Virus record (IMG/VR): IMGVR_UViG_3300044994_000363
Span: 1 to 42,788 of that record
Direction: 5' to 3' (one strand)
Length of the DNA stretch: 42,788 nt
Source: a virus
In this document: in pieces, positions 1-32,817 of the stretch
Layout of the letters: the number at the start of each line of letters is the position of its first letter
Position numbering within the stretch: position 1 is the stretch's first letter
The notes under the pieces: model-generated
The model's database searches: none
The model's input: only the letters and a program-made list of their open reading frames with translations
Told to the model about the DNA's origin: nothing
Made by a program: the position numbers and the translations under genes

Positions 1-127
1 ATCCTTAGGAATCAAAAATTTCAGTTCGCTGTCGTATTGCTCATCGCCATCTACCGCTTTTTGTTCCTCAGTGAATTCACCTGTGCCTAGGGTAAATTTC
101 ACCGTATGCTGTAAGTTAATGTCTTTG
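1..127. repeat. Terminal direct repeat (circular overlap), left copy
   Basis: These 127 bases are identical to the last 127 bases of the window. The repeat runs through the middle of one open reading frame that reads continuously across the join, so it is best read as the overlap of a circular or circularly permuted genome of 42,661 bp, not as a biological long terminal repeat. Confidence 0.95.
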
Positions 128-252
128 GCTTCCATTGTTCCTGCTACATAACCATTCACAGGCTCCGGCACATTGTTTACATTATGAGCATCGTTGAATA
201 AAAGATAGCGTACACCGCTCACATTGTCGTTTCCTTCAATTTCTATGACCAT
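1..252 (-). CDS. Phage structural protein, 5' part (continues at right end)
   Basis: This is the N-terminal part of a protein of about 155 residues that crosses the circular join and ends at 42446. It begins MVIEIEGNDNVSG at 252 and overlaps the last 17 nt of the gene upstream. The reading frame continues without interruption into the right-end segment. It lies directly upstream of the capsid protease and major capsid genes, so a role in the head or tail is inferred. No family was recognised. The protein is acidic, beta-rich in appearance, and has no signal peptide or membrane segment. Confidence 0.75.
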   Translation of the reverse strand, partial: MVIEIEGNDNVSGVRYLLFNDAHNVNNVPEPVNGYVAGTMEAKDINLQHTVKFTLGTGEFTEEQKAVDGDEQYDSELKFLIPKD

Positions 253-742
253 GATTATTAAGGTATTGATGAATAGGTTTATGCTGATCGATTAAGGCAG
301 GAATATGTCGCTGGATATGCTTTATGATCGTTTCTGTGCTGAAATCGTCCTCTTTAAATCCAAAGTCATGCTGATACTGTCGGATGATAGCAGCACGTTT
401 GTGATGACATCGTTGTAATCTATTGGCAGTATAATAGAGGTTTAATTCTCGCTTGATCAACAGCTCTATGCTTTTATTAATATTGAATATCTGAGTTTTG
501 GTGAGCGTGCATCCATTATGTTTGATAAAATCCACAGATACGCGCACATTAACTACCTCCGGAAAAGAATCCAGGTTCACAAGTTTATTCTTCCAATTGC
601 TTACAGCTTTGAAATTGGGTACCATGATGGCAAAAATTAAAGGATCATTTGCCAGCACAAGCGATGGACCTAACATCGTGCGAACGTAGGAAGCAACATA
701 TCGCTTCATTGGAATTTCAATATTGACAAGCTCATCAATCAT
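236..742 (-). CDS. Conserved hypothetical protein, first gene of head operon
   Basis: The frame is open from 796, but the ATG at 742 (MIDELVNIEIPMKRYV) is preferred because the upstream stretch carries one arm of an 11-bp inverted repeat and a promoter-like TATATTTA. The resulting protein has about 168 residues. Its N-terminus resembles small Bacteroidetes mobile-element proteins that start with an 'IPVKPYV'-like phrase; this is from memory and gives no function. The C-terminal third is rich in Lys, Arg and His and may bind nucleic acid. It overlaps the next structural gene by 17 nt and appears to lead the capsid operon that crosses the circular join. Confidence 0.7.
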   Translation of the reverse strand: MIDELVNIEIPMKRYVASYVRTMLGPSLVLANDPLIFAIMVPNFKAVSNWKNKLVNLDSFPEVVNVRVSVDFIKHNGCTLTKTQIFNINKSIELLIKRELNLYYTANRLQRCHHKRAAIIRQYQHDFGFKEDDFSTETIIKHIQRHIPALIDQHKPIHQYLNNHGHRN

Positions 743-773
743 TGGTTGTAAATATACAACTAATGAATCGAAT

Positions 774-1108
774 TTGATACCAAAAAAACAGGACAAATCA
801 ACAACTATTTTATTATTAACATGTAATATTTAATTTGTATGAAATCACAAAATAAAATTGGTATCAAATAAATGGTGTTTTTTTTTGTAATTCTGTAAGA
901 CTGTATTAATGTTTCAGAATCAAGCAATTAAGAAAAATTGAGCTCTTACAAACCGATTTGTAATTTTTGTAAGACCAAGGACCTCTTACAAAATTTTTGT
1001 AATATCTCTCTTTTTATTACAGAATAATAATGAGAAGAAGAAGAATAAAGGCCGCACCACAACTGAAAAAAATCCACGACCCTTACACTCTTACAGAATT
1101 ACAAAAAA
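774..1108. other. Intergenic repeat region: iteron-like motifs, candidate origin or operator
   Basis: This AT-rich region has no large gene. It holds an 11-bp perfect inverted repeat (TTTGATACCAA at 774-784, complement at 858-868) and a longer inverted pair built on TTGTAATTCTGTAAG (about 887-901) and CTTACAGAATTACAA (about 1088-1102). Between these are further copies of CTCTTACAAA and TTTTTGTAAG. Repeated TTACAAA/TTTGTAA motifs in both orientations suggest binding sites for a replication initiator or a repressor. Which protein binds is not shown by the sequence. Confidence 0.5.
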
Positions 1109-1176
1109 AAACGGAAAATTTGCAGCATAAAATAAGGAGTAGGGGTAGCAATGAGGCGAAAATGCTGAATGCGTAA
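1030..1176 (+). CDS. Possible small basic protein (48 aa)
   Basis: This short plus-strand frame encodes MRRRRIKAAPQLKKIHD and so on, 48 residues, strongly basic at the N-terminus. It fills most of a space between divergent minus-strand genes and is followed within 12 nt by a strong hairpin, which supports a transcript on this strand. Against it, one arm of the long inverted repeat lies inside the frame, so the region may instead be purely a regulatory or origin site. No family was recognised. Confidence 0.3.
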   Translation: MRRRRIKAAPQLKKIHDPYTLTELQKKTENLQHKIRSRGSNEAKMLNA

Positions 1177-1187
1177 GTCATAAAATG

Positions 1188-1219
1188 CGAAAGCCCTCCA
1201 TGCAAATGGCGGGCTTTCG
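1188..1219. terminator. Strong hairpin between convergent units
   Basis: CGAAAGCCC and GGGCTTTCG form a stem, extended by CCAT/ATGG around a short loop. It sits between the possible plus-strand small gene and the end of the minus-strand regulator at 1242. The minus-strand side is followed by GCATTTTA, so it probably ends transcription in that direction and perhaps in both. Confidence 0.65.
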
Positions 1220-1241
1220 TGCTGTATGATTAGACTTCGTG

Positions 1242-1544
1242 CTAAGATTCTTCAGTGCTTATTGCCTTGGGATATGGCTTCCAATTTTGGCGAAGTGCAT
1301 CAGTTATAGGTGTATCGCCTTTAATTTCTGCAATGGCCGGATATAAATGTAAGGCATCGCAAATCAGAAGGAATTGTTTCATGCCAAGCCAAAATTCGGC
1401 TTGTTCGGCTCTTATGATTGTTCGTACTCCCAAGCCTGTTTTTTTTGCTACATGAGCCTGTGAGTAGCCTAATTCTAATCTTCTCGATCTTAAGATAACT
1501 GCAATCATTTTGCGAGCTTCTTCCATTACATTGTTCTTTGCCAT
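1242..1544 (-). CDS. XRE-family helix-turn-helix regulator
   Basis: The 100-residue protein carries a Cro/CI-type helix-turn-helix at about residues 15-55. The phrase RRLELGYSQAHVAKKTGLGVRT is cut here at RRLELGYSQAHVAKKTGLGV and shows the 'S/T-Q-x-x-V/L-A-x-x-x-G/T' recognition pattern. It probably binds DNA as a dimer and regulates phage or host genes. It follows the Myb-like protein gene with a gap of 19 nt and ends against a hairpin. It is not next to the integrase, so it is more likely an accessory regulator than the main lysogeny repressor. Confidence 0.8.
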   Translation of the reverse strand: MAKNNVMEEARKMIAVILRSRRLELGYSQAHVAKKTGLGVRTIIRAEQAEFWLGMKQFLLICDALHLYPAIAEIKGDTPITDALRQNWKPYPKAISTEES

Positions 1545-1563
1545 TTTTTGTGATTTATTTTAT

Positions 1564-2118
1564 TCATGCTAACCTCCATATCCTGCAAAATTGCACATCT
1601 TCAATTTTCTCTGTCTTTCTAATAGAAAAAAGATATTGAGGCTTATTCTTGGCTTTTTGCGAATTTATAATTAAATATTTTTGACTATTCACTATAGCCT
1701 TATCATTTTCCGGAAAACTAAAAGAATCGCCAACTTTCATTTTTTCCAAAATTTCGAAATAATTATCTGACTTTGAATAAAATGGAACTACGCCTTTCTC
1801 TATGTTTTCAAAATATGTTTTTTTGCTTTTTCTAATTTTAGAAATCCTAAATTTTGAAATATACTTTGAAATACCACCTTGCGATCTCCCAAGTTGCTTT
1901 GCTATTTCATTAATTGAAAGCTTGCCGAGATTTTCTTGTATGAATACCTTTTCCTCTTCGGAATAAGGGTTCATTTCCCTTCGTATTAATCCCATTTCTT
2001 TTAATTTCTGGGCAATTCCATCTATAGACCTGTCTAATTCTTTTGCAAGTGTTGCGTTTGTTTTTTCTAAGAAATTTTCTTTTAAGAAAAATTCTTCTTC
2101 TTCCGTGTACTTTCTCAT
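1564..2118 (-). CDS. DNA-binding protein with two SANT/Myb-like HTH repeats
   Basis: The 184-residue protein begins with two related repeats. Residues 1-45 contain YTEEEEFFLKENFLEKTNATLA and a helix with LDRSIDGIAQKL; residues 50-90 contain YSEEEKVFIQENLGKLSINE and QLGRSQGGISKYI. This 'sEEE..FI..N....s..eIA..LgRS..gI' pattern is typical of Myb/SANT-like or GcrA-like helix-turn-helix domains. The C-terminal half, with GDSFSFPENDKAIVNSQKYL, resembles small phage domains of unknown role. The gene lies 1 nt after the 67-residue gene and shares its promoter. A transcription regulator is the simplest reading. Confidence 0.65.
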   Translation of the reverse strand: MRKYTEEEEFFLKENFLEKTNATLAKELDRSIDGIAQKLKEMGLIRREMNPYSEEEKVFIQENLGKLSINEIAKQLGRSQGGISKYISKFRISKIRKSKKTYFENIEKGVVPFYSKSDNYFEILEKMKVGDSFSFPENDKAIVNSQKYLIINSQKAKNKPQYLFSIRKTEKIEDVQFCRIWRLA

Positions 2119-2119
2119 G

Positions 2120-2323
2120 CTAATTATTTTTGCAAACTCTTTTTAATCTTTCCAAATCAATTTTTTTTACATCATCAGCATTTTTCGTAGCATCAATTAA
2201 CGGCATGTTGTTAGTTGTTGCTGTCCAAGATTTCCCTGTTACGGGACTTGTGTAAGTTACTTTGTAATGACCGTAACCTGAAGGTTGGAAAGAAAAGTCT
2301 GATAATTTGATTGAATTTTTCAT
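2120..2323 (-). CDS. Small conserved hypothetical protein (67 aa)
   Basis: The protein has a core phrase YGHYKVTYTSPVTGKSW that I recognise as common in short Bacteroidetes mobile-element proteins of unknown function. It has no signal peptide or membrane segment. It is transcribed from a 101-bp promoter and leader that is almost identical to the one in front of the 178-residue gene at 31890, so the two genes should be expressed together. It lies back to back with the tracrRNA-like gene, with the two promoters pointing away from each other. Confidence 0.7.
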   Translation of the reverse strand: MKNSIKLSDFSFQPSGYGHYKVTYTSPVTGKSWTATTNNMPLIDATKNADDVKKIDLERLKRVCKNN

Positions 2324-2328
2324 TTTGC

Positions 2329-2429
2329 TTTGCCCTTTTTTTTGTTCTCGGTTGCGGGTCCGAGTTTTAAGTTATTGATTAAATTCTTGACAAATATACG
2401 TGCCATTTTTGACACTACCAAATTTTTTT
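2329..2429 (-). promoter_or_regulatory. Duplicated 101-bp promoter and leader, copy 1
   Basis: On the minus strand this element has TTTG (2422-2419), 20 nt, then TATATTTG (2398-2391), an excellent match to the Bacteroidetes housekeeping promoter. The leader carries a hairpin, CTCGG-ACCCGCAA-CCGAG, followed by an A-rich stretch and AAGGGCAAA just before the start codon. The second copy at 31896-31996 is identical at about 100 of 101 positions. Conservation of the hairpin suggests that the transcript leader matters as well as the promoter. Confidence 0.85.
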
Positions 2430-2458
2430 GAAAAATTTTAATCTTTTTTTTATATTTG
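2427..2458 (+). promoter_or_regulatory. Promoter of the tracrRNA-like gene
   Basis: On the plus strand TTTG at 2427-2430 is followed after exactly 20 nt by TATATTTG at 2451-2458. This matches the Bacteroidetes promoter consensus. A start point about 6 nt downstream would put the first transcribed base close to 2464, just at the predicted anti-repeat. The -33 box touches the end of the duplicated minus-strand promoter element, so the two units are tightly back to back. Confidence 0.8.
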
Positions 2459-2463
2459 ACACC

Positions 2464-2540
2464 GAAAGCAAATCACAATAAGGCTTTAGCCGCAGTGAAA
2501 AAGCACTTTACGCCAGCTATACGTTGGCGTTCTTTTTTTT
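2464..2540 (+). ncRNA. tracrRNA-like RNA of the phage Cas9 locus
   Basis: The predicted transcript is about 75 nt. It opens with a short anti-repeat (GAAAGCAAATCACAA), then the TAAGGC nexus, as in the ACAATAAGGC of known type II-C tracrRNAs. Three stems follow: GGC-TTTA-GCC, AGTG-AAAAAG-CACT, and ACGCCA/TGGCGT, the last running into TTCTTTTTTTT as an intrinsic terminator. It has its own promoter and converges on the Cas9 operon, its terminal T-run overlapping the stop codon of the dioxygenase gene. The anti-repeat complements TTGTGATTTGCTTTC, which from memory is the beginning of a repeat in Bacteroides type II-C arrays. No partner repeat array is visible in the window. Confidence 0.82.
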
Positions 2541-3252
2541 ACCCCATTCCATTCACGCTGTAGAATACAATAGAGTCTCTGTAATCTCCATCAAAGGCAC
2601 TTACTCCATGCATTATCTCCCTTACGTTTAATATTGCCAGCGAATAGCTCTTACTATCGATGCACATATCTAATTCCGGTAGCACCAGTTTGCCGCCATT
2701 GCCTTTTATCTTATAAAATATCAGATTTAAAACGCCAGGTAACGAAGCTGTATCATAATGCAAACCAAGCAAGCCATTGTAATTGACAGAGCCACTTGTG
2801 TAATGGTTGCTGATGCAAACGCTTTTTTCGCAGAGTAAATTCTGTTGTCTTTTTTGAGCTTCAAAAATTGCAGCCAGTTCGTCACTTTTTTCGCTGGCGA
2901 ATTTTACACCAAGCTCGGCCAATAATGAAATGGCTTTGAGGATGTTTTTGTTTCCCGCTTCTTTGTGAAAGGCAGCTATGGTGCATTTGTGCCTGCCTAA
3001 ACTGCCATCAGTTCTTAGCCCGCCAAAAAATATGGATTCCAATTGCCTGCCGCCATATACATGAGGAATGAAGGATTTTTTATCATTCCTGCATCCTTCA
3101 ATGATGTAGTCAATCAAGTATTGAATGTTAGCATTTGTTTCCGGGAAGAATGCGCCTACGATTTTGCCTTTGTTCCTGATGATGGTTTCAGTAGTTACAT
3201 TTGGCTCATGCCAACCTGGGATATCTCGTTCTTTATAGTCTGTTAATTTCAT
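2539..3252 (-). CDS. 2OG-Fe(II) dioxygenase, TET/JBP-like (putative DNA base hydroxylase)
   Basis: The 237-residue protein has the metal and cofactor signature of 2-oxoglutarate/Fe(II) dioxygenases: His165 and Asp167 in GLHYDTASL, distal His215 in REIMHGV, and Arg225 in DYRDSIVFY for 2OG binding. The order HxD, GGKLVLPE, HGV, R-x-S-x-V-x-Y resembles the TET/JBP group, which oxidises methyl groups of thymine or 5-methylcytosine in DNA, and occurs in phages. The assignment to a DNA substrate is inference; a protein or small-molecule substrate is possible. The gene is last in the Cas9 operon, overlapping the upstream coiled-coil gene by 20 nt. Confidence 0.72.
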   Translation of the reverse strand: MKLTDYKERDIPGWHEPNVTTETIIRNKGKIVGAFFPETNANIQYLIDYIIEGCRNDKKSFIPHVYGGRQLESIFFGGLRTDGSLGRHKCTIAAFHKEAGNKNILKAISLLAELGVKFASEKSDELAAIFEAQKRQQNLLCEKSVCISNHYTSGSVNYNGLLGLHYDTASLPGVLNLIFYKIKGNGGKLVLPELDMCIDSKSYSLAILNVREIMHGVSAFDGDYRDSIVFYSVNGMG

Positions 3253-3481
3253 TTTCTATTTCATTTACTTCGGTTTCTAAAATGGCTATGACTGAAAGCA
3301 GCCTGTTGCGCCTGATGAATTGATTATAATTTTGGTACATTCTCTCAATCCTGTTGTCAATTTCTGATAATAGCATTTCATCCACAGGTTCGGGTAAATC
3401 AATATTAAAGCATGGTTGATATGCTTGTTTTTTTTCTTCGATGCCGTTAAGGAAGTTCATTGTTGAGTGTTTTAGTATCAA
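3233..3481 (-). CDS. Small coiled-coil protein in Cas9 operon (82 aa)
   Basis: The protein of 82 residues starts within the end of the helicase gene (35 nt overlap) and ends inside the start of the dioxygenase gene. Residues 35-80 (LLSEIDNRIERMYQNYNQFI and ILETEVNEIENEINRL) are predicted coiled coil with heptad leucine, isoleucine and methionine. A start at Met8 (MNFLNGIEEKK) is also possible and would shorten the overlap. The function is unknown; a scaffold or adaptor between the helicase and dioxygenase is only a guess from the translational coupling. Confidence 0.65.
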   Translation of the reverse strand: MILKHSTMNFLNGIEEKKQAYQPCFNIDLPEPVDEMLLSEIDNRIERMYQNYNQFIRRNRLLSVIAILETEVNEIENEINRL

Positions 3482-4994
3482 TTTTCATGAATTGGGAAAT
3501 ATCGCTGCTTAAATCAACCTTTCTTTCGTATAGATCATTCACATAGCCTTCTACGCTATTGGCTATATAGATATTGTGCGTGTAGGTTTGTTTTTTTTGG
3601 ACCAGTCGGTCGATCCTGCCGATGCCCTGAAAGCGATGGATAGGGTTTAGTGAATGGCCAAACATTACTACATGGTTTGCATTAGGGAAATCCAGCAATT
3701 CGGAGCCACAGCCATAACTTGCCAGCAACACCCTACATTTCCCCTCTCTGAATAAGTGAATGGCCAGGGCATTGTCATCATCATATTGCTGCCCATGTAA
3801 TTCAATGAATGATATTGATGCCCGGTGCAATGCTTCTCTTGCTATTGCAATGTCAGCATAACGGCCGTTAACTGTAAAACCAAACACAATTACCTGATCA
3901 TCATGAGGTATTAAATGTAGTATTTCAATGAGTTTGTTTTTTTTCAACTCTGCGCCTCCTGCGCGATAGCAGCATTGCACCATTGAGGTGAAAACATCTA
4001 CAATGCTTTGTTTCTCTTTGATGAATTTATTAGCCCGATTGTAAAGTAAATTCATAGCCTGAGACTGCGTGGCGTTCAGCATTAATTTATAATCCTTGCT
4101 AATGCTTTTCCGGTTGTCGTAATCATACCGGTTGCGATGGAAAATATAAGGAGAAACGGATTGCAAAAAATTGAGCATAGATTTTACCCCTCTAATTTTT
4201 TCGCCTTTCACATTCAAATAGTGGTGCGCTTTTTTTCCTTCCTCAATGATTATTCTTTTGTCTATACAGAAGAAAATTCCGAATAAATCAAGTACGCCAT
4301 TGATGCAGCTTGTGGCTGTCAATCCATGCACATACCCGGCTTTATGCAGGCTCACCCTTATGTTATTGGCCAGCTTACAGTCGGGGGTTTCGTTGATGGC
4401 GATGATGCCATTTTTCACCCTATGCGCTTCATCAATAATAACACAATCGTTTTCATTTATCAGCAAATCCTGGTTGTAGCTAAACCAATTAATGCTTACT
4501 ACATTGGTTTCAATAGCAGGATTAAGCCAACGTTTGAATGAAGTGTTTAATTGCTCAATGGCTCTTTCATATTGCGGGGTGATCCAGTAAAGGCGTTTAA
4601 TCTTTCCATGATTAAAAAGGGTGTTTGCAACCTCAATTCCAATCTTTGTTTTGCCGGAACCTGTCCACAACCAAATTAGGCTGCGTTTCAATTTTACTGC
4701 AAATTCCACCGCTTCTTTTTGTATCTGCACCAAATCAGCAGGGTAGTCTTTTTCTTCTATGCCGGTTACCCACTTTATTGATGCAGGTGGCTTTTGTTGC
4801 AATATTTCGGCAAGGGAAATATCAGTGAATAAATGGTTGGTTTCAAACCAATCATCCACAACCACATCATAGCCTACCGATGCAGGTTTCATATCTATGA
4901 TAGCAGCGTTTGGAATCCAAAACTTGCTGCCATTCATAAATAGCTTTGCCTTATGGGTTTGTTTCAGTAGCGATATTTGTCTTGCTATTTTCAA
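3447..4994 (-). CDS. SF2 helicase/translocase, SNF2-like
   Basis: The 515-residue protein has superfamily 2 motifs: Walker A TGSGKT at residues 111-116, DEAH at 188-191, TATS at 226-229, and in the second lobe LASYGCGSELLDFPNANHVV followed by NPIHRFQGIGRIDRLVQKKQ, the QxxGRxxR motif VI of SNF2-type enzymes. It should couple ATP hydrolysis to movement on duplex DNA. There is no nuclease or methylase domain attached. The start overlaps the end of cas9 by 44 nt, indicating translational coupling. Phages often carry SNF2-like proteins in replication regions, but this one is placed with the Cas9 homologue, so remodelling or opening of DNA at the Cas9-bound site is a reasonable hypothesis. Confidence 0.88.
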   Translation of the reverse strand: MKIARQISLLKQTHKAKLFMNGSKFWIPNAAIIDMKPASVGYDVVVDDWFETNHLFTDISLAEILQQKPPASIKWVTGIEEKDYPADLVQIQKEAVEFAVKLKRSLIWLWTGSGKTKIGIEVANTLFNHGKIKRLYWITPQYERAIEQLNTSFKRWLNPAIETNVVSINWFSYNQDLLINENDCVIIDEAHRVKNGIIAINETPDCKLANNIRVSLHKAGYVHGLTATSCINGVLDLFGIFFCIDKRIIIEEGKKAHHYLNVKGEKIRGVKSMLNFLQSVSPYIFHRNRYDYDNRKSISKDYKLMLNATQSQAMNLLYNRANKFIKEKQSIVDVFTSMVQCCYRAGGAELKKNKLIEILHLIPHDDQVIVFGFTVNGRYADIAIAREALHRASISFIELHGQQYDDDNALAIHLFREGKCRVLLASYGCGSELLDFPNANHVVMFGHSLNPIHRFQGIGRIDRLVQKKQTYTHNIYIANSVEGYVNDLYERKVDLSSDISQFMKIDTKTLNNELP

Positions 4995-7725
4995 GGCTTT
5001 GTTTTTTTATGATTTCACCCATTTGATTTACAAAAACTTTTTGCAGCTTCATCCATTCATCCGCCTTTACCTTATGTGTATCGGTTGCCGATAGCGTTGT
5101 TACGGGGCGCAACGATGGGTTATCAGCTACCCCAATCAAATACCAATACTTACCGTTTAGTTCTACCACATCATTTTCTTGTAAGTAAAAGCCCTTGTCT
5201 ATTCGCTCGCCATTGTTGAGTTTGTTGATGTATTCGAGTAGCGTAATGGTTTCTTTTTTCACCTTGCCTTTTTCGTCAATCCAAACTTTGAGGCAAAAGT
5301 TTTTATCGCTGAACACATAATCGGTTTTGGTTTCATAATCCCTGAATCTTCCGGTGATGCCGTTGCCATCGGTAGAATGTAATGCAAATATTTTTTCTGC
5401 GTTTTGGCTTACCGATACTCTTTTGATGGGCTTGCAATTGTGGGTTGCCGGGTTTTCAATCAGCGATAAAATGCCGTCTTCGTGGTTGCCTTTTTCTTTA
5501 ATCCTTGCCTGAATTTTTTCACGAATCGCTTTGTCCATTATTTTCAACACCATAGGCTCTGTCAGCTTGCTTATTGGCTGCCTTATTTTGAAAAATACTT
5601 CTTCGATGATTTCGCCTTTGGCATTTCTTTTTTTGTTTACACGCCTGCCGAATACGCTTTCCTCGTGTAATGCAAAGCGTGGATTGAATCCGAATTTCGT
5701 ATGTCTTGAAAATTTGATGCGTGGCATGAAAACCGGAACGTTGAAGTCAATCATCGGCAACCCGGGTTGGATGTCATAAACCGAAACACTGTCGATATGC
5801 TCGCTATGTACTTTTATGTTATCGAAGTAGTCAACGGTTTCCTGGCTCATATTGGCCATGGTCCATGCCTTGGCTAAGTAGTGGCGTGCATCTTGCTCGT
5901 TCCAGCTTTCTTTCAGCCATTCTCTGGTGTAGCGATTGATGAGCTTGTTGGGGATATTAGTTGCTTTGCCTATCGTGGCGAAGCATTTGGTATTATAGTC
6001 GCTATTTTGCCTTTTTGAAATCCAATTATCCGGAATTTCATTTTCTTCCATGAGCAAGAATTTTTGTTTTTCTTCCGGAAATCGTTCAACCGCTTTTCTA
6101 TATTCATCTTCAATGCCTAACTGCCGTGCAAAATCAATACCGGTAAGCCTGTTTTTTTGCTCATTCAATTGCGTTGGGCAAAGCACCAGGTTGGCTATGC
6201 CTCGTTCAAATATTTTGCTTTTGGGGATTATATGGTCAAGGTTATATTTATCAGTGAACAAATCTTTTTTGTCAATGATAACATCGGGTTCGTAAGGACT
6301 GATGCCGCCACTTTCTTCCCATAGTTTGAGCTTCATTAGGTTATAGGCTGATAAGTGGGAATTCACTTTTTCAAACTTGTCATCTTTTCTTTTTGCTTGT
6401 GCTATTGCCTTACGGCCTTTGTTGCCCTGCTTCAGAAGATGGTCAATTTCAAACTGAATTTCGGTAATGGGATATTTGCTTTTTATTTGCTCTACCAAGG
6501 CTTTGTAGCTGTGGTAGTGTTGCTCTAATACCACGTTGCGCAAGGCCACGTTCTCAAAATCAACTTTGCCGTAAACTTCCAATATGGCTTCTTTCAGTTT
6601 CATACCATGGCGCATCAATGGCATTAACTTGCGGATAGCTTTCATGCTGAAATCACCCCAACCTAATTTGCTGAAATCAAGATCGAGCAATTCGTTGATT
6701 ATGTGGTCGCTGAACTTGTATTTTTGGGCCAATAATTTTGCAAGCTTCTCGTTGGTTGTTGCCGAATAAATGTCCTGCCACAAGTTGTAATCTTTCTGAA
6801 TTTTCAAGTCATTGAAGGCTTTACTCACGGGGTTTCCTGCAATCATTTTGCCACTAAACCAACTGTATTGGGTGGGCTTGCTCAACCCTAAATCTTTTAA
6901 GCAAGCGGCTTTTGTGAGGTTGGCTCCTTCGTTGCATTTATTAAACCATTTTTGGCGAATTTCAAATGGGATTTCAATCTCATTTTTTTCGATGTCATAA
7001 ATGTGAATATTCAGCACATCGCGCAAAATTCTAAATTCCTGATAAACCGGGTTGGAAGCGTGAACAACCTCTCTGTTTTTTTCATAATCACACTTTGAAA
7101 CCTTTCCTTTTTTCAAAGGTCGCTGGTAATAAATGATGTCAAACAGTTTCTTTCTCAGGGTTGGGTCTATGGCTTGCTTATCCATAATGGCATTAAATTC
7201 ATTTTCATAGCTTTTCCTGGTAAAAATGATATTCGTACTGCTTTCCATTGTGAGTAGATAAGCCGCTATTGATGGATATGCTTTCAGGTTTTCTTCGTGG
7301 CGTTCAATCTCTTTGATGTAATCGCTGTTGTCGTTATCACTCACGCCACGTTGGCTGTAATAGCCACGTTTTATTTGCAATTGGCAGAGCACATTGGTGA
7401 GTTCTTGTGGTGTCAATTGCTGGGTTAAGCCTTTCACCCTAAGCTGGAGATTGGCAGTTCTTGATAGATGCTGCGGCTTGCAATTGAAATGCTTTAGAAG
7501 GAGCCTTTTTAAATTGGCTTTTCGGCTTTTATATCGCCAAAGGTTGCGCCTGGCGCCCGCCTTTAATCTTTTATTAATCCTTTTGCTCACCGGCAAGCCG
7601 GCAATAAACTCATAGTAATTATCGAAGCTGATATTTACTCTTTTTATTCCGGTTTTTACAACGGAAATTCCTTCGGTGAGGACGAAAGCAATGGCTCTTA
7701 AGCCGACATAGATGTTGAGATTCAT
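4951..7725 (-). CDS. cas9: Cas9 homologue with degenerate RuvC and intact HNH (predicted nickase)
   Basis: The 924-residue protein has the Cas9 order. RuvC-I is at residues 3-16, bridge helix about 49-79 (KRLKAGARRNLWRYKSRK), a small helical REC lobe, RuvC-II with Glu426 (EIQFEIDHLL), HNH with Asp497, His498 and Asn521 (YNLDHIIPKS, LNEQKN), RuvC-III about 610-625, and a C-terminal region like the WED/PAM-binding part. The catalytic Asp of RuvC-I is Tyr6 (TAT, one base from GAT), and RuvC-III reads RHYLAKAW where HHxxDA is expected, giving Tyr616 and Lys619. HNH keeps all key residues with the usual His-to-Asn spacing of 23. The start at 7725 is chosen because it puts RuvC-I at the N-terminus and lies 11 nt after the preceding stop; the frame is open to 7788. 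The length is short for Bacteroidetes Cas9. Reading frame and domain order are intact, so decay is unlikely. Confidence 0.93.
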   Translation of the reverse strand: MNLNIYVGLRAIAFVLTEGISVVKTGIKRVNISFDNYYEFIAGLPVSKRINKRLKAGARRNLWRYKSRKANLKRLLLKHFNCKPQHLSRTANLQLRVKGLTQQLTPQELTNVLCQLQIKRGYYSQRGVSDNDNSDYIKEIERHEENLKAYPSIAAYLLTMESSTNIIFTRKSYENEFNAIMDKQAIDPTLRKKLFDIIYYQRPLKKGKVSKCDYEKNREVVHASNPVYQEFRILRDVLNIHIYDIEKNEIEIPFEIRQKWFNKCNEGANLTKAACLKDLGLSKPTQYSWFSGKMIAGNPVSKAFNDLKIQKDYNLWQDIYSATTNEKLAKLLAQKYKFSDHIINELLDLDFSKLGWGDFSMKAIRKLMPLMRHGMKLKEAILEVYGKVDFENVALRNVVLEQHYHSYKALVEQIKSKYPITEIQFEIDHLLKQGNKGRKAIAQAKRKDDKFEKVNSHLSAYNLMKLKLWEESGGISPYEPDVIIDKKDLFTDKYNLDHIIPKSKIFERGIANLVLCPTQLNEQKNRLTGIDFARQLGIEDEYRKAVERFPEEKQKFLLMEENEIPDNWISKRQNSDYNTKCFATIGKATNIPNKLINRYTREWLKESWNEQDARHYLAKAWTMANMSQETVDYFDNIKVHSEHIDSVSVYDIQPGLPMIDFNVPVFMPRIKFSRHTKFGFNPRFALHEESVFGRRVNKKRNAKGEIIEEVFFKIRQPISKLTEPMVLKIMDKAIREKIQARIKEKGNHEDGILSLIENPATHNCKPIKRVSVSQNAEKIFALHSTDGNGITGRFRDYETKTDYVFSDKNFCLKVWIDEKGKVKKETITLLEYINKLNNGERIDKGFYLQENDVVELNGKYWYLIGVADNPSLRPVTTLSATDTHKVKADEWMKLQKVFVNQMGEIIKKQSLENSKTNIATETNP

Positions 7726-7736
7726 ATTATCGTGTA

Positions 7737-8201
7737 TTAATTGTTTGACATTTTTTTGAGCCATAATGCTCGATTGGCTTGCATCCATTTTGGCGTTGCG
7801 TTGCCGTAATCAAATACAGCAGGGTGGGGCTTGGTGTAATCAATATCTACATGAATGAACCTGGCATTGAGGCCGATTCGTTTAGCTCCGACACTGATCA
7901 GGGTTTCGATAATTAAGGTTGCGTGAGCTTCATCATTGAAGGCAATATCAGCCGCAAGTCCTTGCAGGTGGGCAGAATTTTTTACACCACCAACGGCATC
8001 GTTCAGGCGTGGGCAACGATATCCGGAAGTAATCCGCACCGGCCCAATTTTATCACGAAGAGGTTGCAGGATTTGAGTGCATAGTTTTGTAAGATTTTGG
8101 ACGATGCGTCGTTCGGGTGTGAACTGTTCATTTAAGGATAATTCAACAGCTTTATTTGAGGCTGTTAGTTCTGCTAATGTGAAATTTTTAGTGAGATTCA
8201 T
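7737..8201 (-). CDS. Peptidase M15-family endolysin (D-Ala-D-Ala type)
   Basis: The 154-residue protein matches the peptidase M15 fold used by many phages to cut peptidoglycan cross-links. Residues 57-85 read ITSGYRCPRLND then SAHLQGLAAD, and FIHVDID follows at 115-121. The zinc ligands are His78, Asp85 and His117. There is no signal peptide, so access to the wall would depend on the holin at 27560. It is the first gene of the operon that continues into cas9, with 11 nt between stop and start. An enzyme of lysis placed beside accessory genes, far from the holin, is unusual; M15 proteins also occur as accessory or host-derived genes. Confidence 0.88.
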   Translation of the reverse strand: MNLTKNFTLAELTASNKAVELSLNEQFTPERRIVQNLTKLCTQILQPLRDKIGPVRITSGYRCPRLNDAVGGVKNSAHLQGLAADIAFNDEAHATLIIETLISVGAKRIGLNARFIHVDIDYTKPHPAVFDYGNATPKWMQANRALWLKKMSNN

Positions 8202-8206
8202 AATTT

Positions 8207-8290
8207 TATGTATAATGTATTATTCAAATATTCAATGCGTTATGTGTTACGTTGTGGCAAACCTTCGTCTATTTGCAAGTTATAAGCAAC
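8207..8290. repeat. attC-like boundary sequence (left end of cassette region)
   Basis: On the minus strand this segment begins with GCTTATAAC and contains TTGCAAA and TTTGCCACAA as imperfect inverted arms, followed by CATAACGC. It lies directly after the stop of the small gene at 8292 and resembles degenerate integron attC sites. It also contains the leader of the M15 peptidase gene with an imperfect -7 box, AATATTTG. The attC reading is weaker here than for the next sites. Confidence 0.35.
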
Positions 8291-8291
8291 C

Positions 8292-8564
8292 CTAAAGAAC
8301 AGACTGTTCAAAATAATCATTTAGCCATCCGACTTTTAAACCAATGGTTTTTCCACCACTCAAAGAGCCTAACATAATATCTTCATCACCATCCATCCCT
8401 TTAAAAATACCTGTGTAAGTTTCGCCATTCCGTAGATTTAGCATTACTGCTTTTCCTTTTTCGCAATCTTCAATTTCGTATGGCTTTTTAATAACCATTT
8501 CAATTGTTCTTTTTCCATCTTTGAAATCAATTTCGACTTCTGCTGTTACTGTTGTTTTTGACAT
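8292..8564 (-). CDS. Small beta-rich protein, possible Sm-like fold (90 aa)
   Basis: The 90-residue protein has an N-terminal acidic and basic beta region followed by AVMLNLRNGETYTGIFKGMD, then DIMLGSLSGGKTIGLKVGWL. The pattern 'V-x-L-x-x-G-x-x-Y-x-G-x-x-x-G-x-D' recalls Sm/LSm-type beta barrels that bind RNA, but this is a pattern impression and not a firm match. It is the leftmost gene of the cassette-like array, followed and preceded by attC-like foldbacks, and has its own AT-rich leader. It has no signal peptide or membrane segment. Confidence 0.6.
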   Translation of the reverse strand: MSKTTVTAEVEIDFKDGKRTIEMVIKKPYEIEDCEKGKAVMLNLRNGETYTGIFKGMDGDEDIMLGSLSGGKTIGLKVGWLNDYFEQSVL

Positions 8565-8609
8565 TTTTATTTATTTTAAATTGTTAATATTAAATTCGTG
8601 AAAAGGGCA

Positions 8610-8704
8610 GCTTAGAACAGGTGCTTGGCAAAAGCTGCCAGAAAACATTGTGCGAACTTTGAACTTCGGTTAGGCAGCCTTCGCCAAGCACCCGACCGTT
8701 AGCT
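8610..8704. repeat. attC-like foldback site A
   Basis: Two arms at 8620-8639 and 8673-8692 pair over GGTGCTTGGC and GCTGCC, with 4 unpaired central bases, enclosing a 33-nt loop. They are flanked by GCTTAGAAC on one side and CCGTTAGCT on the other, in the positions of integron R boxes (consensus RYYYAAC and GTTRRRY). On the minus strand the site follows the stop of the gene at 8711 and precedes the start of the gene at 8564, as attC sites do in cassettes. It does not carry a T-run, so it is not a simple terminator. Confidence 0.6.
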
Positions 8705-8710
8705 GATATG

Positions 8711-8977
8711 CTACGGACGTTCCTTAATGCTATCAAGCCACTTCTTGACATCATTTGGACTTACCTTGTCCGTGACTATTCCATTTGTTATACACCATCT
8801 TGCAAAGTGGACTAAATCCATTTCACAAAATGTTTCATCAACAGGGTCGTGTTCAGCTACGAGTGTTCCATCTTTTTCAAACACTTGTGTTATAATCCGA
8901 ATTGGACTATGCTCAACACCTTTACCACGTCTTGTAAGTGTGGCGACTATTAGTTCTTTGCAAATTACTGTATCCAT
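8711..8977 (-). CDS. Cassette-encoded hypothetical protein (88 aa)
   Basis: The frame is open to 9022, but the ATG there lies within attC-like site B. The start at 8977 (MDTVICKELIVATL) follows an A-rich leader typical of this host and is preferred. The protein has a basic phrase TRRGKGVEHSPIRIITQVFE and a C-terminal helical part ending VKKWLDSIKERP. I do not recognise the family. Small size, independent leader and flanking foldback sites fit a mobile gene cassette. Confidence 0.6.
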   Translation of the reverse strand: MDTVICKELIVATLTRRGKGVEHSPIRIITQVFEKDGTLVAEHDPVDETFCEMDLVHFARWCITNGIVTDKVSPNDVKKWLDSIKERP

Positions 8978-9013
8978 TTTTTTAAATTTTAATCGTTTGA
9001 CAATAAGCACATC

Positions 9014-9150
9014 AGCTAACATGCGGTTTGCCGTCAGTGGCAGTGCTGTGGTTAATTGATGGATTGTTTTTCATATCTACTTTATTTTTTTTGATTGATA
9101 AATTCGTTTATAGAATCGCCACCGAACGGCAAGCCGCTGGGGCGTTAGGC
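9014..9150. repeat. attC-like foldback site B
   Basis: Arms GCGGTTTGCCG (9023-9033) and CGGCAAGCCGC (9127-9137) form an inverted repeat with one mismatch. They are flanked by AGCTAAC (9014-9020) and GTTAGGC (9144-9150); the latter fits the attC core GTTRRRY exactly. On the minus strand the site begins 7 nt after the stop of the gene at 9157. The loop of about 90 nt is long, as in large attC sites, and holds a very short frame that may be a truncated cassette remnant. Confidence 0.6.
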
Positions 9151-9156
9151 GAAACC

Positions 9157-9465
9157 CTATTGAGCATCGGACTTCGGTTTGACAATCATTTTTAAATCGC
9201 AAGACTGAGCAGTAATTTTCTCCTCAAAGTCTTTTATGTATTTGTGTGCAACTTCTCTTAATAATGCTTTTAAACAACCTTCTCCAAAATATGAAGTCAT
9301 TTGTTTTAAAACAGCTTCATCTGTTTGTTGCACATTTTCGGTTACAGACTTTCGCAAGTTTGACCAGCTTTTTAGTTTTTTACTGTTGCTTTCTATCAAA
9401 GAAAGTCTTTTTTCAATCCCGTCAATGTAGGTATTAACCGTCTTTTTTAAATCTTCTAATTCCAT
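9157..9465 (-). CDS. Cassette-encoded coiled-coil protein (102 aa)
   Basis: The protein of 102 residues starts MELEDLKKTVNTYIDGIEKR and is helical throughout. Residues 1-30 form a probable coiled coil; residues 50-85 hold a second helical segment with a conserved-looking GCLKALLREVAHKYIKDF. It has no signal peptide or membrane span. It is bounded by attC-like site B downstream and site C upstream. The function is unknown; binding to another protein through the coiled coil is plausible. Confidence 0.6.
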   Translation of the reverse strand: MELEDLKKTVNTYIDGIEKRLSLIESNSKKLKSWSNLRKSVTENVQQTDEAVLKQMTSYFGEGCLKALLREVAHKYIKDFEEKITAQSCDLKMIVKPKSDAQ

Positions 9466-9500
9466 CGTTTTTTATTTTTTGTTAATAATTAAATTCTCTA

Positions 9501-9536
9501 TGCGCCCGAACGCAAAGCCATCGGACGTTAGCGGTC
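9501..9536. repeat. Short attC-like site C
   Basis: This 36-bp stretch is a close relative of the right part of site B: both have GTTAG, then on the minus strand GGCTT, then GCGTTCGG or CCGTTCGG and a GC-rich end. It forms a small hairpin through TGCG and CGCA. It lies between the stop of the gene at 9540 and the start of the gene at 9465. It seems to be a shortened site. Confidence 0.5.
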
Positions 9537-9539
9537 AGG

Positions 9540-10040
9540 CTAAAACGGCAACTCGTCATCATATTGGTTAGACATTTTGACAAGTTCACCTTGACTGCTT
9601 ATTGACTGAACAATATCTATTACAATATCAATAAATTCAAGTTCAATTTCATTTAGAAAATCTTCAACCATCATTTTAAATTCTTGATTGGTTGTAGGTT
9701 TTTTTTCAAATTTCATTTCCGGCTGAAAATATCTTAATATGACATACTTTTTGCTATCATAAACTGAGCAATTAAGCATAATTAGTTTGTTTGGATTATC
9801 GACTAAATAGCCTATTAAAATTCCGTTACCAGAAAAAAATCTACTTCCATTTTTGCTTATCTCAAAATCCAAAAAGTATGACAGGCTACCACAATGACCA
9901 GAGCCATCGGAAAATTTGCCATAATAATTAGGCTGATGAAATTTTTCGGTAACAGGAGAATAGATACTGAAATGTGTGTCAATTAATTCAGGGTAAAACT
10001 TTCCTTTAGGTGATACTGATAATAACTTTACTTTTTCCAT
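9540..10040 (-). CDS. Hypothetical protein with SSB-like acidic C-terminal tip
   Basis: The 166-residue protein is not a recognised family. Its last residues, SNQYDDELPF, copy the acidic C-terminal tip of bacterial single-stranded DNA-binding protein (DDxxPF), which recruits replication and repair proteins. The body is beta-rich up to about residue 115 (YFLDFEISKNGSRFF, LIGYLVDNPNKLIMLN) and then helical. It might be a divergent ssDNA-binding protein, or a protein that uses the tip to dock on the host's SSB partners. The phage primase-helicase ends in a similar DDLPF. It lies in the cassette-like region and follows the ADP-ribosyltransferase-like gene in the same direction. Confidence 0.6.
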   Translation of the reverse strand: MEKVKLLSVSPKGKFYPELIDTHFSIYSPVTEKFHQPNYYGKFSDGSGHCGSLSYFLDFEISKNGSRFFSGNGILIGYLVDNPNKLIMLNCSVYDSKKYVILRYFQPEMKFEKKPTTNQEFKMMVEDFLNEIELEFIDIVIDIVQSISSQGELVKMSNQYDDELPF

Positions 10041-10125
10041 TTGTTTAAATTTTTTCGTTGATTAAATCGTGTGTGTCCATTTTGATTTTATTTAAGTGTT
10101 AAAATTCATTTGAGACATATCAAGT

Positions 10126-10530
10126 CTAAACATTACTCTGGATTAATTTGAATGATTTAATAATGTCAAAATCAAAAACTACAATCACATCGGACACATT
10201 ATGCCTCATTAGTTTTTTTGATGGATAATCAAAAACGTTTTTGATTATAACACCTTTGTGACCTTCTCTATAGAGTTTATACATTAAATTTCTGAAATCA
10301 TTACTATATGATGTTTTGTTGCCATAGTCAACAGAATGCAAATAATCTATGATTTCAGATTCATATACAAAACCGCCATTTCTTTTACCCTCTTCATCTG
10401 CTCTATGTTGAGCGTATAGTTTTGCTAATTCTATATCACTAGCGAAAAATAAAGCTTTGAAGCCGTAACGAGAACGTTTCCACTTTTCAATTTTAAAATT
10501 ATCTCTGGATGAACCTCTGTAAACTATCAT
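10126..10530 (-). CDS. Putative ADP-ribosyltransferase-like protein
   Basis: The 134-residue protein begins MIVYRGSSRDNF, with Tyr4, Arg5 and Gly6 at the position of the NAD-binding arginine of ART-fold enzymes. This is followed by GFKALFFASDIELAKLYAQH, the usual 'F-F-A/S-x-D-x-x-x-A-x-x-Y-A' segment, then FVYESEI and GHKGVIIKNVF. This order is seen in small toxin-type mono-ADP-ribosyltransferases. The catalytic Glu cannot be fixed by eye. In phages such enzymes modify host proteins during takeover; as a cassette gene it could also be a toxin without a visible antitoxin. A GTTAGCA-containing half-site lies just upstream. Confidence 0.6.
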   Translation of the reverse strand: MIVYRGSSRDNFKIEKWKRSRYGFKALFFASDIELAKLYAQHRADEEGKRNGGFVYESEIIDYLHSVDYGNKTSYSNDFRNLMYKLYREGHKGVIIKNVFDYPSKKLMRHNVSDVIVVFDFDIIKSFKLIQSNV

Positions 10531-10614
10531 ATTTTAAATTTTTAACTGTAAAGCCGAATTGCTAACACATTGTTTCCGTTATTATTTGTTGTTTTCGTTT
10601 GCATATTTCAAAAT

Positions 10615-10926
10615 TTATAAAACATTTTGTGATTTCTTGAGAGCATTGACTTCTTTTAATTCATCCATAAGCTTGTCTATTCTAAGCGAAATCATGTCTG
10701 AAAGATTGTTGTTTTTTCTTATTCTTCCGGTCGGAGTAAACCTATTAGCTTGAATAATAGGATTTATTTGCTGCATTGAGAGCATGTCATCTATTGCTCT
10801 AATTTCAATATCGGCTTGTTCAAGAGAGCTGCCGTTTTCTACAATAGTTTTAGCCAGCATTACATACTCATCTGTTTTGACTTGAGTGGTTCCGAATGTT
10901 GCAGAACCTAATAATTTTCTTTTCAT
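10615..10926 (-). CDS. Hypothetical helical protein (103 aa)
   Basis: The protein of 103 residues follows the 64-residue gene by 11 nt and is the last gene that seems to belong to the replication operon. It has a Ser/Gly-Thr-rich N-terminus, then helices with LEQADIEIRAIDDMLSMQQI and a basic C-terminal part with IDKLMDELKEVNALKKSQ. No family was recognised. A role in replication or its control is suggested by position only. Confidence 0.6.
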   Translation of the reverse strand: MKRKLLGSATFGTTQVKTDEYVMLAKTIVENGSSLEQADIEIRAIDDMLSMQQINPIIQANRFTPTGRIRKNNNLSDMISLRIDKLMDELKEVNALKKSQNVL

Positions 10927-10937
10927 TATTGTAATTT

Positions 10938-11132
10938 TTATAAAACCTCTTTCATTAATCCTTTTTTAAGGGCTTCTTCAAAATCTTGTCCGGTTCGCTC
11001 GTATGCTGTGCGGGTTTTTGGATTCAGTAGCTTAACGGTTCCTTTCGTGGTACCGCCCTGCCATATTTCTATCAGTATATACAATTCGCCTGTGGGCGTC
11101 TGGTATTGTGAATATAAGTGGTATGGTATCAT
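10938..11132 (-). CDS. Small beta-rich protein (64 aa)
   Basis: The 64-residue protein (MIPYHLYSQYQTPTGELYIL) lies 10 nt after the primase-helicase gene, in the same operon. It appears as a small beta sheet (YILIEIWQGGTTKGTVKLLN) with a C-terminal helix. The family is unknown. Its compact form and position after the primase suggest an accessory or inhibitor protein; there is no direct evidence for either. Confidence 0.6.
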   Translation of the reverse strand: MIPYHLYSQYQTPTGELYILIEIWQGGTTKGTVKLLNPKTRTAYERTGQDFEEALKKGLMKEVL

Positions 11133-11142
11133 AACTTAATAT

Positions 11143-14608: not shown

Positions 14609-14703
14609 CCGATCAGCAATTTGATGAGAATGAATGCTATGAATGCACCGGCACCTAATATGCGTGCAAGGCCTTTAATGTCGATTTTGTAATTATTATT
14701 CAT
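14605..14703 (-). CDS. Single-span membrane peptide (32 aa)
   Basis: This short gene encodes a 32-residue peptide starting MNNNYKIDIKGLARILGAG and ending with the hydrophobic stretch AFIAFILIKLLIG, a likely single transmembrane helix. It is linked to both neighbours by overlap: its ATG lies within the last 8 nt of the upstream gene and its TGA overlaps the ATG of the downstream gene (ATGA). This pattern supports a real gene. A role in anchoring replication proteins or in membrane disturbance is possible. Confidence 0.6.
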   Translation of the reverse strand: MNNNYKIDIKGLARILGAGAFIAFILIKLLIG

Positions 14704-31145: not shown

Positions 31146-31236
31146 CCAATAGCCTTGGGCGCGGATTATTTTGTCCGAAAAAACATGAACTCTATCGTAA
31201 TTGTATCAAGCGGTTCAAAAATACAAAATAATTTAT

Positions 31237-31329
31237 GATGCACATCTCCCAATTTTTCGCAAGCGACACGCAGTTCGCTTGCGAAAAATTTTTTTACAAA
31301 AAAAGGGTAAGCGTTTACAAACGCTTACC
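31237..31329. repeat. 93-bp direct repeat with two palindromes, copy A
   Basis: This element contains a perfect 14-bp inverted repeat (TTTTTCGCAAGCGA with its complement, loop CACGCAGT) and then a second hairpin, GGGTAAGCGTTT/AAACGCTTACCC. Copy B at 32019-32110 is nearly identical; differences are a C/T, one A of a run, and two loop bases that keep the hairpin. The two copies flank the 178-residue gene and its promoter in direct orientation. Confidence 0.85.
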
Positions 31330-31330
31330 C
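31305..31330 (-). terminator. Intrinsic terminator of the 178-aa gene
   Basis: GGGTAAGCGTTT and AAACGCTTACCC form a 12-bp stem with a 2-nt gap. On the minus strand it is followed by a run of seven T, so it should end transcription of the gene whose stop is at 31354. It is part of repeat copy A. Confidence 0.85.
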
Positions 31331-31353
31331 TCTTCATTTCAATCACTTTTTAT

Positions 31354-31890
31354 TTATAATCGCTGGTACTTACTCAAATGCCCCCTCGGCGCTCCAACCA
31401 CAAATCGTCTTTCAGAAGTGATAAATTCATCGCTAATGGGCTTATCCAATGTAATTGTAGTTGCTGTAACACCATCACAATCATATTGGTGGGCAGAATA
31501 ACCAATTGTCATTGCCGGCAAATCCCAACTTCCCCAATTTTGTTCATTTAACCACTGAAGTAATAGCCTGACATTCTCAATCGTTGCAGGAATAGGACCA
31601 GCCTCAATCATTGCCATTAATTTAGCATTTTCAGCCTTTCTCTTTTCCGCCCTCTCAATAGCATAGGCTTCATTTTCCAGTTTCCTTTGCAATTTCAATT
31701 GTTTCTTTTCTTCCAGAAAAGCTTCAATAGATTCATACTCTTTGTAGCCATAAGGATCCTTATAGGCAGTTTTCTTCTCTAATTCGGCAGGTGTATATGG
31801 CACAAATTGACCTTGAATAATCTTGCCATAAATGCCATCAATGTTAGCAATGTCGCCTGATTTGCTTGTTTCTTTAATTTTAATTTTCAT
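31354..31890 (-). CDS. Moron-like hypothetical protein (178 aa)
   Basis: The 178-residue protein starts MKIKIKETSKSGDIANIDGI. It has a charged coiled coil in the middle (FLEEKKQLKLQRKLENEAYA, ERAEKRKAENAKLMAMIEAG) and a C-terminal domain with LLLQWLNEQNWGSWDLPAMT. It has its own strong promoter, a hairpin leader, its own terminator, and flanking 93-bp repeats, the features of a phage moron. The leader is shared with the 67-residue gene near the tracrRNA, so co-expression is expected. The function is not known. Confidence 0.7.
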   Translation of the reverse strand: MKIKIKETSKSGDIANIDGIYGKIIQGQFVPYTPAELEKKTAYKDPYGYKEYESIEAFLEEKKQLKLQRKLENEAYAIERAEKRKAENAKLMAMIEAGPIPATIENVRLLLQWLNEQNWGSWDLPAMTIGYSAHQYDCDGVTATTITLDKPISDEFITSERRFVVGAPRGHLSKYQRL

Positions 31891-31895: not shown

Positions 31896-31996
31896 TTTGC
31901 CCTTTTTTTTGTTCTCGGTTGCGGGTCCGAGTTTTAAGTTATTGATTAAATACTTGACAAATATACGTGCCATTTTTGACACTACCAAATTTTTTT
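31896..31996 (-). promoter_or_regulatory. Duplicated 101-bp promoter and leader, copy 2
   Basis: The copy has TTTG (31989-31986), 20 nt, TATATTTG (31965-31958) on the minus strand, with the CTCGG/CCGAG leader hairpin and the same A-rich approach to the start codon. It differs from copy 1 (2329-2429) by about one base in 101. Identity stops at the run of T before the -33 box, where the tracrRNA promoter starts at the other locus. Confidence 0.85.
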
Positions 31997-32018
31997 TAAA
32001 AAAAATAAAAGCATTTCC

Positions 32019-32110
32019 GATGCACATCCCCCAATTTTTCGCAAGCGACACGCAGTTCGCTTGCGAAAAATTTTTTTACAAAAAAGGGTAAGCGTTTGTA
32101 AACGCTTACC
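32019..32110. repeat. 92-bp direct repeat with two palindromes, copy B
   Basis: This is the second copy of the element at 31237-31329, lying just upstream of the promoter of the 178-residue gene. Its GGTAAGCGTTT/AAACGCTTACC hairpin (32086-32110), followed on the minus strand by TTTTTT, ends transcription of the DUF932-like gene at 32134. The 14-bp palindrome is unchanged (32035-32048 with 32057-32070). Confidence 0.85.
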
Positions 32111-32133
32111 ATCTTCTGTTCAATCACTATATT

Positions 32134-32817
32134 TTAAACTTGCAAAATATAATTATGTAGCTGAATGTGTTTCTGCATGAGTTGTTTAGGTGTGCAAGTT
32201 TTAAGGGCTTCCGTACAATGATTATAAAAATCCCATTGGGTAGCCTCTTTAAAATGCTCACTAAAATACACCTCATTTTTCAGAATGCTTAACTGCGTAC
32301 TTGTCAAAATCCCATCTTCAATAAACATTCTTCCAGCAAGTTCAGCCATTTGGCGGCGGTCCATTGGTCGCAGCTTCATTTCTTCCACATCTTTAACGAT
32401 GTTTAAAAATTGCACTTCCGCACTTTCAACGACAGTATTAACTATGTCTTTCAATTCCTTAAAAACTCCGTTGGTATGCTTGCGCATCACCTTAATGTCA
32501 CCTTTAAACATCAAATTGCTGCACACGATAACAGTACTACCAGCACACAGCCCCACGGCTAAACTCTTGTCGTAGCTATTACGGAAGCCTATATTCATAT
32601 ACTGCCCATTTTCGGGGCTGCCTACTTCCCAAACGCTAAACATCTGCTGCCCGTTGTCGTTGGCGGTGAAGCGTTTTTTTTGAACGTCTAAATTTCTCTT
32701 GTCTAAAGCTTCGCTCAAAATATCTGTCAGCACGATGTGAGGCACGGGTGTATAACTCTGTGTTTTCAATGGTAATTCTACGGCATATAACGCCTGTTCA
32801 TCTAACAAATGTTTCAT
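32134..32817 (-). CDS. DUF932-like phage/plasmid protein
   Basis: The 227-residue protein resembles the DUF932 family of phage- and plasmid-encoded proteins. The core has FRNSYDKSLAVGLCAGSTVI followed by VCSNLMFKGDIKVMRKHTNG, and later RRQMAELAGRMFIEDGILTS. The molecular function is not established. Its length is shorter than full DUF932 proteins (usually about 300-400 residues), so it may have only the central domain. It is transcribed with the 67-residue gene 3 nt upstream and ends in repeat copy B. Confidence 0.75.
   Translation of the reverse strand: MKHLLDEQALYAVELPLKTQSYTPVPHIVLTDILSEALDKRNLDVQKKRFTANDNGQQMFSVWEVGSPENGQYMNIGFRNSYDKSLAVGLCAGSTVIVCSNLMFKGDIKVMRKHTNGVFKELKDIVNTVVESAEVQFLNIVKDVEEMKLRPMDRRQMAELAGRMFIEDGILTSTQLSILKNEVYFSEHFKEATQWDFYNHCTEALKTCTPKQLMQKHIQLHNYILQV

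Follow-up and report, generated by a model that had tools for sequence, protein, structure and literature searches.

Near-identical promoter–leader elements at two places in a phage genome and a recurrent promoter–hairpin layout in phages of Bacteroidota

The DNA analysed here (hereafter the window) is the whole 42,788-nucleotide stretch of the IMG/VR virus record IMGVR_UViG_3300044994_000363. Its contig ends have exactly 127 bases in common, as would be expected if an assembler had been run at k = 127 on a circular molecule; because of these shared ends and the presence of an integrase gene (16407-17609), we infer that the window represents the entire circular genome of a temperate phage. Its structural genes resemble those of the Polaribacter phage Leef_1 at 24-34%. 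Two copies of a promoter–leader element are found in it, both on the minus strand, as are the genes downstream of each. Copy 1 (2329..2429) heads three minus-strand genes, which are likely to form a single operon: a gene for a 67-aa protein (2120..2323), the likely native partner of the element, with homologues in nine phage records; a gene for a 184-aa D5-like HTH regulator (1564..2118; phrog_323, E 2e-19); and a gene for a 100-aa HTH protein of the phage repressor family (1242..1544; phrog_3, E 6e-6). Upstream of copy 1 lie a divergent tracrRNA gene (2464..2540, plus strand) and, further on, genes for a helicase (3447-4994) and a Cas9 protein (4951..7788, minus strand).

Copy 2 (31896..31996) is placed before a gene for a 178-aa protein (31354..31890), which is followed by a twin-hairpin terminator block (31214..31354, minus strand) recognized by its repeats, a terminator scan and alignment. 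A near-copy of this block (31996..32135, also on the minus strand) lies after a DUF932 gene and abuts copy 2. The terminator blocks flanking the 178-aa gene are 782 bases apart, and the only differences between their first hairpins are in the loop (GT versus AC) and the flanks. Since the 178-aa gene stands singly with its own promoter and its own terminator and is surrounded by structural genes, it has the make-up of a one-gene moron. Its sole relative is found in the contig L007, where the best segment is 56% identical and the gene is without such a leader; none was recovered from the phages collection or from 296 genomes. The 67-aa protein was likewise absent from 395 genomes and was seen in one record of the plasmid collection, while the viral_contigs collection yielded no relatives of the DUF932 and D5-like proteins or of the terminase, the last of which has relatives in 5/395 genomes at 26-34% identity. 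Structures predicted for the two proteins reached a mean pLDDT of 61 (67 aa) and 60 (178 aa) and were left out of fold searches.

Pairwise alignment of 2329-2429 with 31896-31996 gives a single mismatch in 101 nucleotides (T at 2385, A at 31952), in agreement with the initial annotation, which had described 101-bp elements that differ by about one base, with a CTCGG/CCGAG hairpin and promoter boxes inside them, before unrelated genes of 67 and 178 residues; both the hairpin and the boxes are present in either copy, and the two genes are indeed unrelated. The aligned segment as a whole spans 130 nucleotides at 93% identity (2306-2435 and 31873-32002), with a weaker similarity running through the start codon into the first codons. 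In-register identity is 0.99 at 2329-2429, 0.70 at 2306-2328 and 0.52 at 2430-2450, against 0.29 outside, such that the likeness falls to background within about 25 bases on either side. A match of this kind cannot be due to chance. An assembly artefact is an unlikely source, because the copies match without interruption over 56 bases at most, as against the 127 bases of the shared ends, and the copies are very probably real. The analysis supports the earlier proposal that promoter and leader were recently duplicated or converted.

Read on the minus strand, the element comprises a promoter (TTTGGTA...TATATTTG), a dyad in the promoter spacer, a leader hairpin, an A-rich stretch and the ATG. The promoter of copy 1 (2391..2422) has TTTGGTA as its -33 box, starting from 2422, and TATATTTG as its -7 box (2398-2391), with a spacer of 20; that of copy 2 (31958..31989) is identical. 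The consensus for the primary sigma factor of Bacteroidota, Sigma-ABfr, as quoted in PMC7366714, is TTTG at -33 and TAnnTTTG at -7. Both copies, as well as the tracrRNA promoter, conform to it with about 20 nucleotides between the boxes. The pattern by itself is no rarer than chance in the window (3 seen versus 2.31 in shuffles), and hence it is the position and repetition of the promoter that carry weight. The spacer dyad GTGTCAAAAATGGCAC, a putative operator, lies at 2400..2415 in copy 1 and 31967..31982 in copy 2, both on the minus strand. At up to 3 mismatches it has 5 sites in the window versus 0.65 expected, and the only two exact ones are those of the two copies. Because the dyad is identical in the copies and has just one other window site within 2 mismatches, their co-regulation through this putative operator is plausible. 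That other site (42400-42415, with 2 mismatches) adjoins a start codon and has no promoter match, and we did not count it as a further operator. The leader hairpin, CTCGG-ACCCGCAA-CCGAG, occupies 2347..2364 in copy 1 and 31914..31931 in copy 2 (minus strand in both), the latter also being picked up by the terminator scan and the stem comparison described below. It begins 26 nucleotides past the -7 box and ends 23 nucleotides ahead of the ATG; the fold of copy 1 has an energy of -6.9 kcal/mol with a modest z of -1.66, and the window has no Rfam match at gathering scores.

Between the -33 boxes of copy 1 and of the divergent tracrRNA promoter (2427..2458, plus strand) there are 4 bp. As the two promoters are divergent with such closely spaced boxes, they are probably not occupied at once. 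The tracrRNA starts with the anti-repeat GAAAGCAAATCACAA, of the sort found in Bacteroidota type II-C tracrRNAs, and ends in a terminator stem at 2510-2530; the 20-base anti-repeat pattern was found in at least 119 stretches, at tracrRNA starts and in CRISPR repeats. The Cas9 protein (945 aa; TIGR01865, E 3e-56) has had both the RuvC-I Asp and the RuvC-III Asp replaced and has kept the HNH motif, as judged by comparison with 23 aligned host Cas9 ORFs. Purifying selection seems to act on it, with a dN of 0.014 and a dS of 0.123 relative to the homologue in contig L003. No CRISPR array was found in the window. A phage type II-C Cas9 with a dead RuvC, a tracrRNA, a SNF2 helicase and no array is a proposed kind of anti-CRISPR presented in PMC10910872, where such proteins are suggested to take crRNAs from the host system; phage type II-C Cas9s with a dead RuvC also feature in PMC11656645. 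The window agrees with this kind in its Cas9, tracrRNA and helicase, in the loss of the RuvC residues with an intact HNH, and in having a tracrRNA with a bacterial-type anti-repeat and no array; the resemblance is in the neighbour of copy 1, however, and not in the element itself. Here the RuvC-dead Cas9 locus is borne by a complete 42.8-kb temperate phage. The initial annotation had taken the back-to-back arrangement to link the moron to Cas9 regulation: there is a real tracrRNA beside copy 1, and the link from the 178-aa moron to Cas9 is a matter of position alone. The nearest relative of the window, G001, with a 97% identical Cas9, spans window positions 30362 down to 4566 only, a range that excludes both copies. 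In G001 (L003 1-8502, 8503-9501, 9502-13223), identity to the window is 99.9% for about 20 kb, followed by a replaced stretch and then by 97.4% through Cas9; what is evidently a recombination boundary lies there next to the Cas9 locus.

Searches of viral_contigs, phages, plasmids and Bacteroidota genomes did not recover the element from any other record. Its 25-base core is absent from viral_contigs; a search of the phages collection with window 1-20000 in near mode gave no copy, and in distant mode short partial matches only; and there were no hits among the plasmids or in 12 Bacteroidota genomes. Eighteen short matches in 394 genomes of one family (the best of 26 bases, E 7e-4 to 0.009) were read as chance, and three stretches of viral_contigs matching the hairpin pattern are unrelated.

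Relatives of the 67-aa protein occur in 9 phage records: seven are from tailed phages, with an identity of 61-76%, and two from microviruses, with 49%. The leaders were inspected in 8 of these records, of which four have the promoter and the hairpin, three a promoter without this hairpin and one no promoter match. The first four, BKO1-3, AS73P1, C1_85S2P and PDS1, have the 67-aa gene preceded by TTTGGTA ... TAnnTTTG and the hairpin ACCGGG-CGTTTT-CCCGGT, and among the 128 window ORFs of at least 60 aa this gene is the only match to any of them, at 73-76% identity. The protein has 22 residues invariant in 8 sequences, and the tailed phages that encode it are of different make. As a small gene at 73-76% identity is accompanied by the same kind of leader in otherwise unrelated phages, their joint transfer is the best reading, and as the gene alone is shared with these four phages and has the layout before it in all four, copy 1 probably came with the 67-aa gene. 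This transfer pattern, together with the L007 relative of the 178-aa gene that lacks such a leader, makes copy 1 the likely source and copy 2 its derivative. Hence, we propose that the 67-aa gene and its cassette may have entered the phage as a unit, and that the cassette would then have been copied before the 178-aa gene.

The search of related phages for the leader, which had been suggested as a check in the initial annotation, uncovered the layout before different genes at several places in each of six phages infecting Bacteroides, Parabacteroides, Alistipes and Elizabethkingia. BLAST with the leader of the Alistipes phage recovered six Bacteroidota phages, at 4, 2, 3, 2, 3 and 2 places. 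For the comparison of stems, 19 sites in seven phages, the window included, were collected from genome scans. All 95 of the 95 stem cells pair (one as G-T) while the arm sequence changes: pair 2 is C-G, G-C or T-A, pair 3 is G-C, C-G or G-T, and the arms take five different forms, which when swapped pair fully in 8/25 combinations. The stem is of 5 bp in the window and 5-6 bp elsewhere. The hairpin follows the -7 box after 15-31 nucleotides, 19 being the distance at 10 sites, and precedes the ATG by 18-23 nucleotides at 15 sites and by 7 at the other 4, all of which lie before one gene family of 142-144 aa. These genomes have the layout before two or more unrelated genes each, and the stem continues to pair as its sequence changes. 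The 19 sites cannot be treated as independent, since the six phages were chosen by similarity and share a 142-aa gene, and some of them (PDS1, C1_85S2P and PD491P1) look like close relatives.

Promoters were compared in 13 genomes, namely the window, the six phages chosen for having the 67-aa gene or a leader of similar sequence, and six comparison phages: BT498P1 and FPSV-S2, with weak leader matches; CRP6, Leef_1 and phage028a, taken for other genes; and PD691P3, which has the 67-aa gene but not the hairpin. Across the 13, a GC-rich hairpin lies 12-31 nucleotides downstream of 21/64 promoter matches, versus 1.57 expected from a per-genome background, and it is present at 18/22 promoters of the TTTGGTA type versus 3/42 others. 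The six comparison phages have it at 2/26 promoters, both in the Riemerella phage CRP6 and neither of the TTTGGTA type, and their two TTTGGTA-type promoters are both without it. Against shuffled leaders in 9 genomes, 16/30 promoter matches outside long ORFs have the hairpin, with 0.33 expected and one of the 16 being the tracrRNA terminator stem; inside long ORFs 5/15 also have a hairpin within 60 nucleotides, three of these being sites of the 19-site set that were misclassed by the ORF rule. With the comparison phages mostly lacking the hairpin and the six showing signs of shared ancestry, the layout is shown, at the level of sequence, to hold for one broad lineage plus this window and not for all Bacteroidota phages. 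A limited search of the open-access literature found no description of this promoter–hairpin layout. In the main text of the PDS1 paper (PMC10773633) there is no mention of a hairpin, intergenic region, terminator or sigma factor, and its two mentions of promoters concern invertible promoters of the bacterial host.

Since look-alike switches are reused before several genes in some other Bacteroidota phages, the element has the appearance of a portable part for expression and not of a copy made once. We consider it likely that it is a self-contained phage expression cassette, comprising a host-sigma promoter with an extended -33 box, a leader hairpin and an A-rich, unstructured run-up to the gene, as supported by the two near-identical copies, the same layout before different genes elsewhere, the kept pairing and the one shared gene. 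Against this has to be set the view that the promoter alone matters, with the hairpin as passive baggage and the copies the product of recent duplication or gene conversion, each under its own control. A 101-bp duplication indeed needs no function, and the Bacteroides phage BT498P1 has three repeats of a promoter and leader that lack a hairpin (L159 7361, 12775 and 16597, with a different spacer sequence); however, pairing that persists over 19 sites through five pairs of arms, and hairpins that track one promoter type, speak against this account, which we regard as unlikely.

Alternatively, the hairpin might be an antitermination site comparable to the nut and put sites of lambda and HK022, past which the polymerase would become resistant to termination and carry the genes through terminators. 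Its location just after a promoter at several places per genome and the terminator blocks behind copy 2 would suit such a function, which would, however, defeat the 178-aa gene's own terminator block directly behind it. Moreover, the loop sequences differ (CGTTTT, GGAGTA and ACCCGCAA), a variation that is not expected of a protein-bound boxB, and none of the window genes scanned was recognized as an antiterminator, leaving this explanation quite improbable. Finally, the element could belong to the control of Cas9 and the tracrRNA, with the 178-aa moron as a co-regulated anti-CRISPR accessory. The divergent arrangement of copy 1 and the tracrRNA, whose -33 boxes are separated by 4 bp, and the anti-CRISPR role proposed for phage Cas9 plus tracrRNA in PMC10910872 speak for it. 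We nevertheless hold it to be very unlikely: no tracrRNA adjoins copy 2, which lies 15 kb or more from cas9; nothing in the other cassette phages matches the window Cas9; and the L007 relative of the 178-aa gene is without such a leader.

Under the favoured reading of a self-contained cassette, transcription by the host RNA polymerase would start some 6-8 nucleotides past the -7 box, and the hairpin, beginning about 20 bases from the expected 5' end, would shield the message and keep the A-rich initiation region before the ATG open. According to PMC6847099, Shine–Dalgarno sites are lacking in Bacteroidetes, where structure and upstream A's tune initiation. Thus, any gene placed behind the leader could be translated well without such a site: by fixing structure away from the start codon, the leader would lessen the influence of the following gene on expression, which would account for the movement of the unit from gene to gene. 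Both copies may be switched together by a repressor acting at the spacer dyad, for which either of the HTH proteins encoded behind copy 1 is a possible candidate; the identity of the dyad is what suggests a single regulator. At copy 1 the polymerases at the divergent tracrRNA promoter, with its -33 box 4 bp off, and at the cassette would probably exclude each other.

A more general scenario, which we offer tentatively and regard as rather doubtful, is that Bacteroidota phages trade a mobile expression part, made of the extended -33 promoter and a leader hairpin conserved in structure. This might spread between unrelated phages with small cargo genes and be copied within genomes, so that a single operator comes to govern new cargo as well. 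One of the two copies described here might also compete with the promoter of a decoy tracrRNA, trading the expression of the cargo against the supply of the anti-CRISPR RNA by promoter exclusion. Regulation in the phages of Bacteroidota, which are major gut and environmental bacteria, is poorly mapped, and a recognizable promoter–hairpin layout would allow transcription units and morons to be called from sequence only, besides supplying compact expression parts for Bacteroidota hosts. The case also points to a route by which a promoter might spread with, and then beyond, one small gene, and the pairing of copy 1 with the tracrRNA offers a direct test of coupling between an anti-CRISPR locus and other prophage expression.

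Repeated promoter or leader cassettes in phages are of an already known kind. The SAS/ESAS elements of Cluster K mycobacteriophages (PMC3203893) are like those of the window in being repeated upstream of several unrelated non-structural genes; about half of them have inverted repeats, they are tied to the gene families that they precede, and the repeat sequence varies between subclusters. They consist of a 13-bp start-codon motif and 17-bp inverted repeats, whereas here the constant part is the promoter and the short hairpin in the 5' leader has a stem of 5 bp in the window and 5-6 bp elsewhere, well apart from a 17-bp inverted repeat. Similarly, the halovirus HF2 has intergenic repeats in its genome that were shown to carry promoters (PMC8707807); these are archaeal promoters, and the abstract of that paper makes no mention of a leader hairpin. 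The Sigma-ABfr promoters of Bacteroidetes, as given in PMC7366714, have the same -33 TTTG and -7 TAnnTTTG, to which the element adds the extended -33 box (TTTGGTA), the attached leader hairpin and the spacer dyad. The element is comparable in kind to the SAS/ESAS and HF2 repeats but is of another make.
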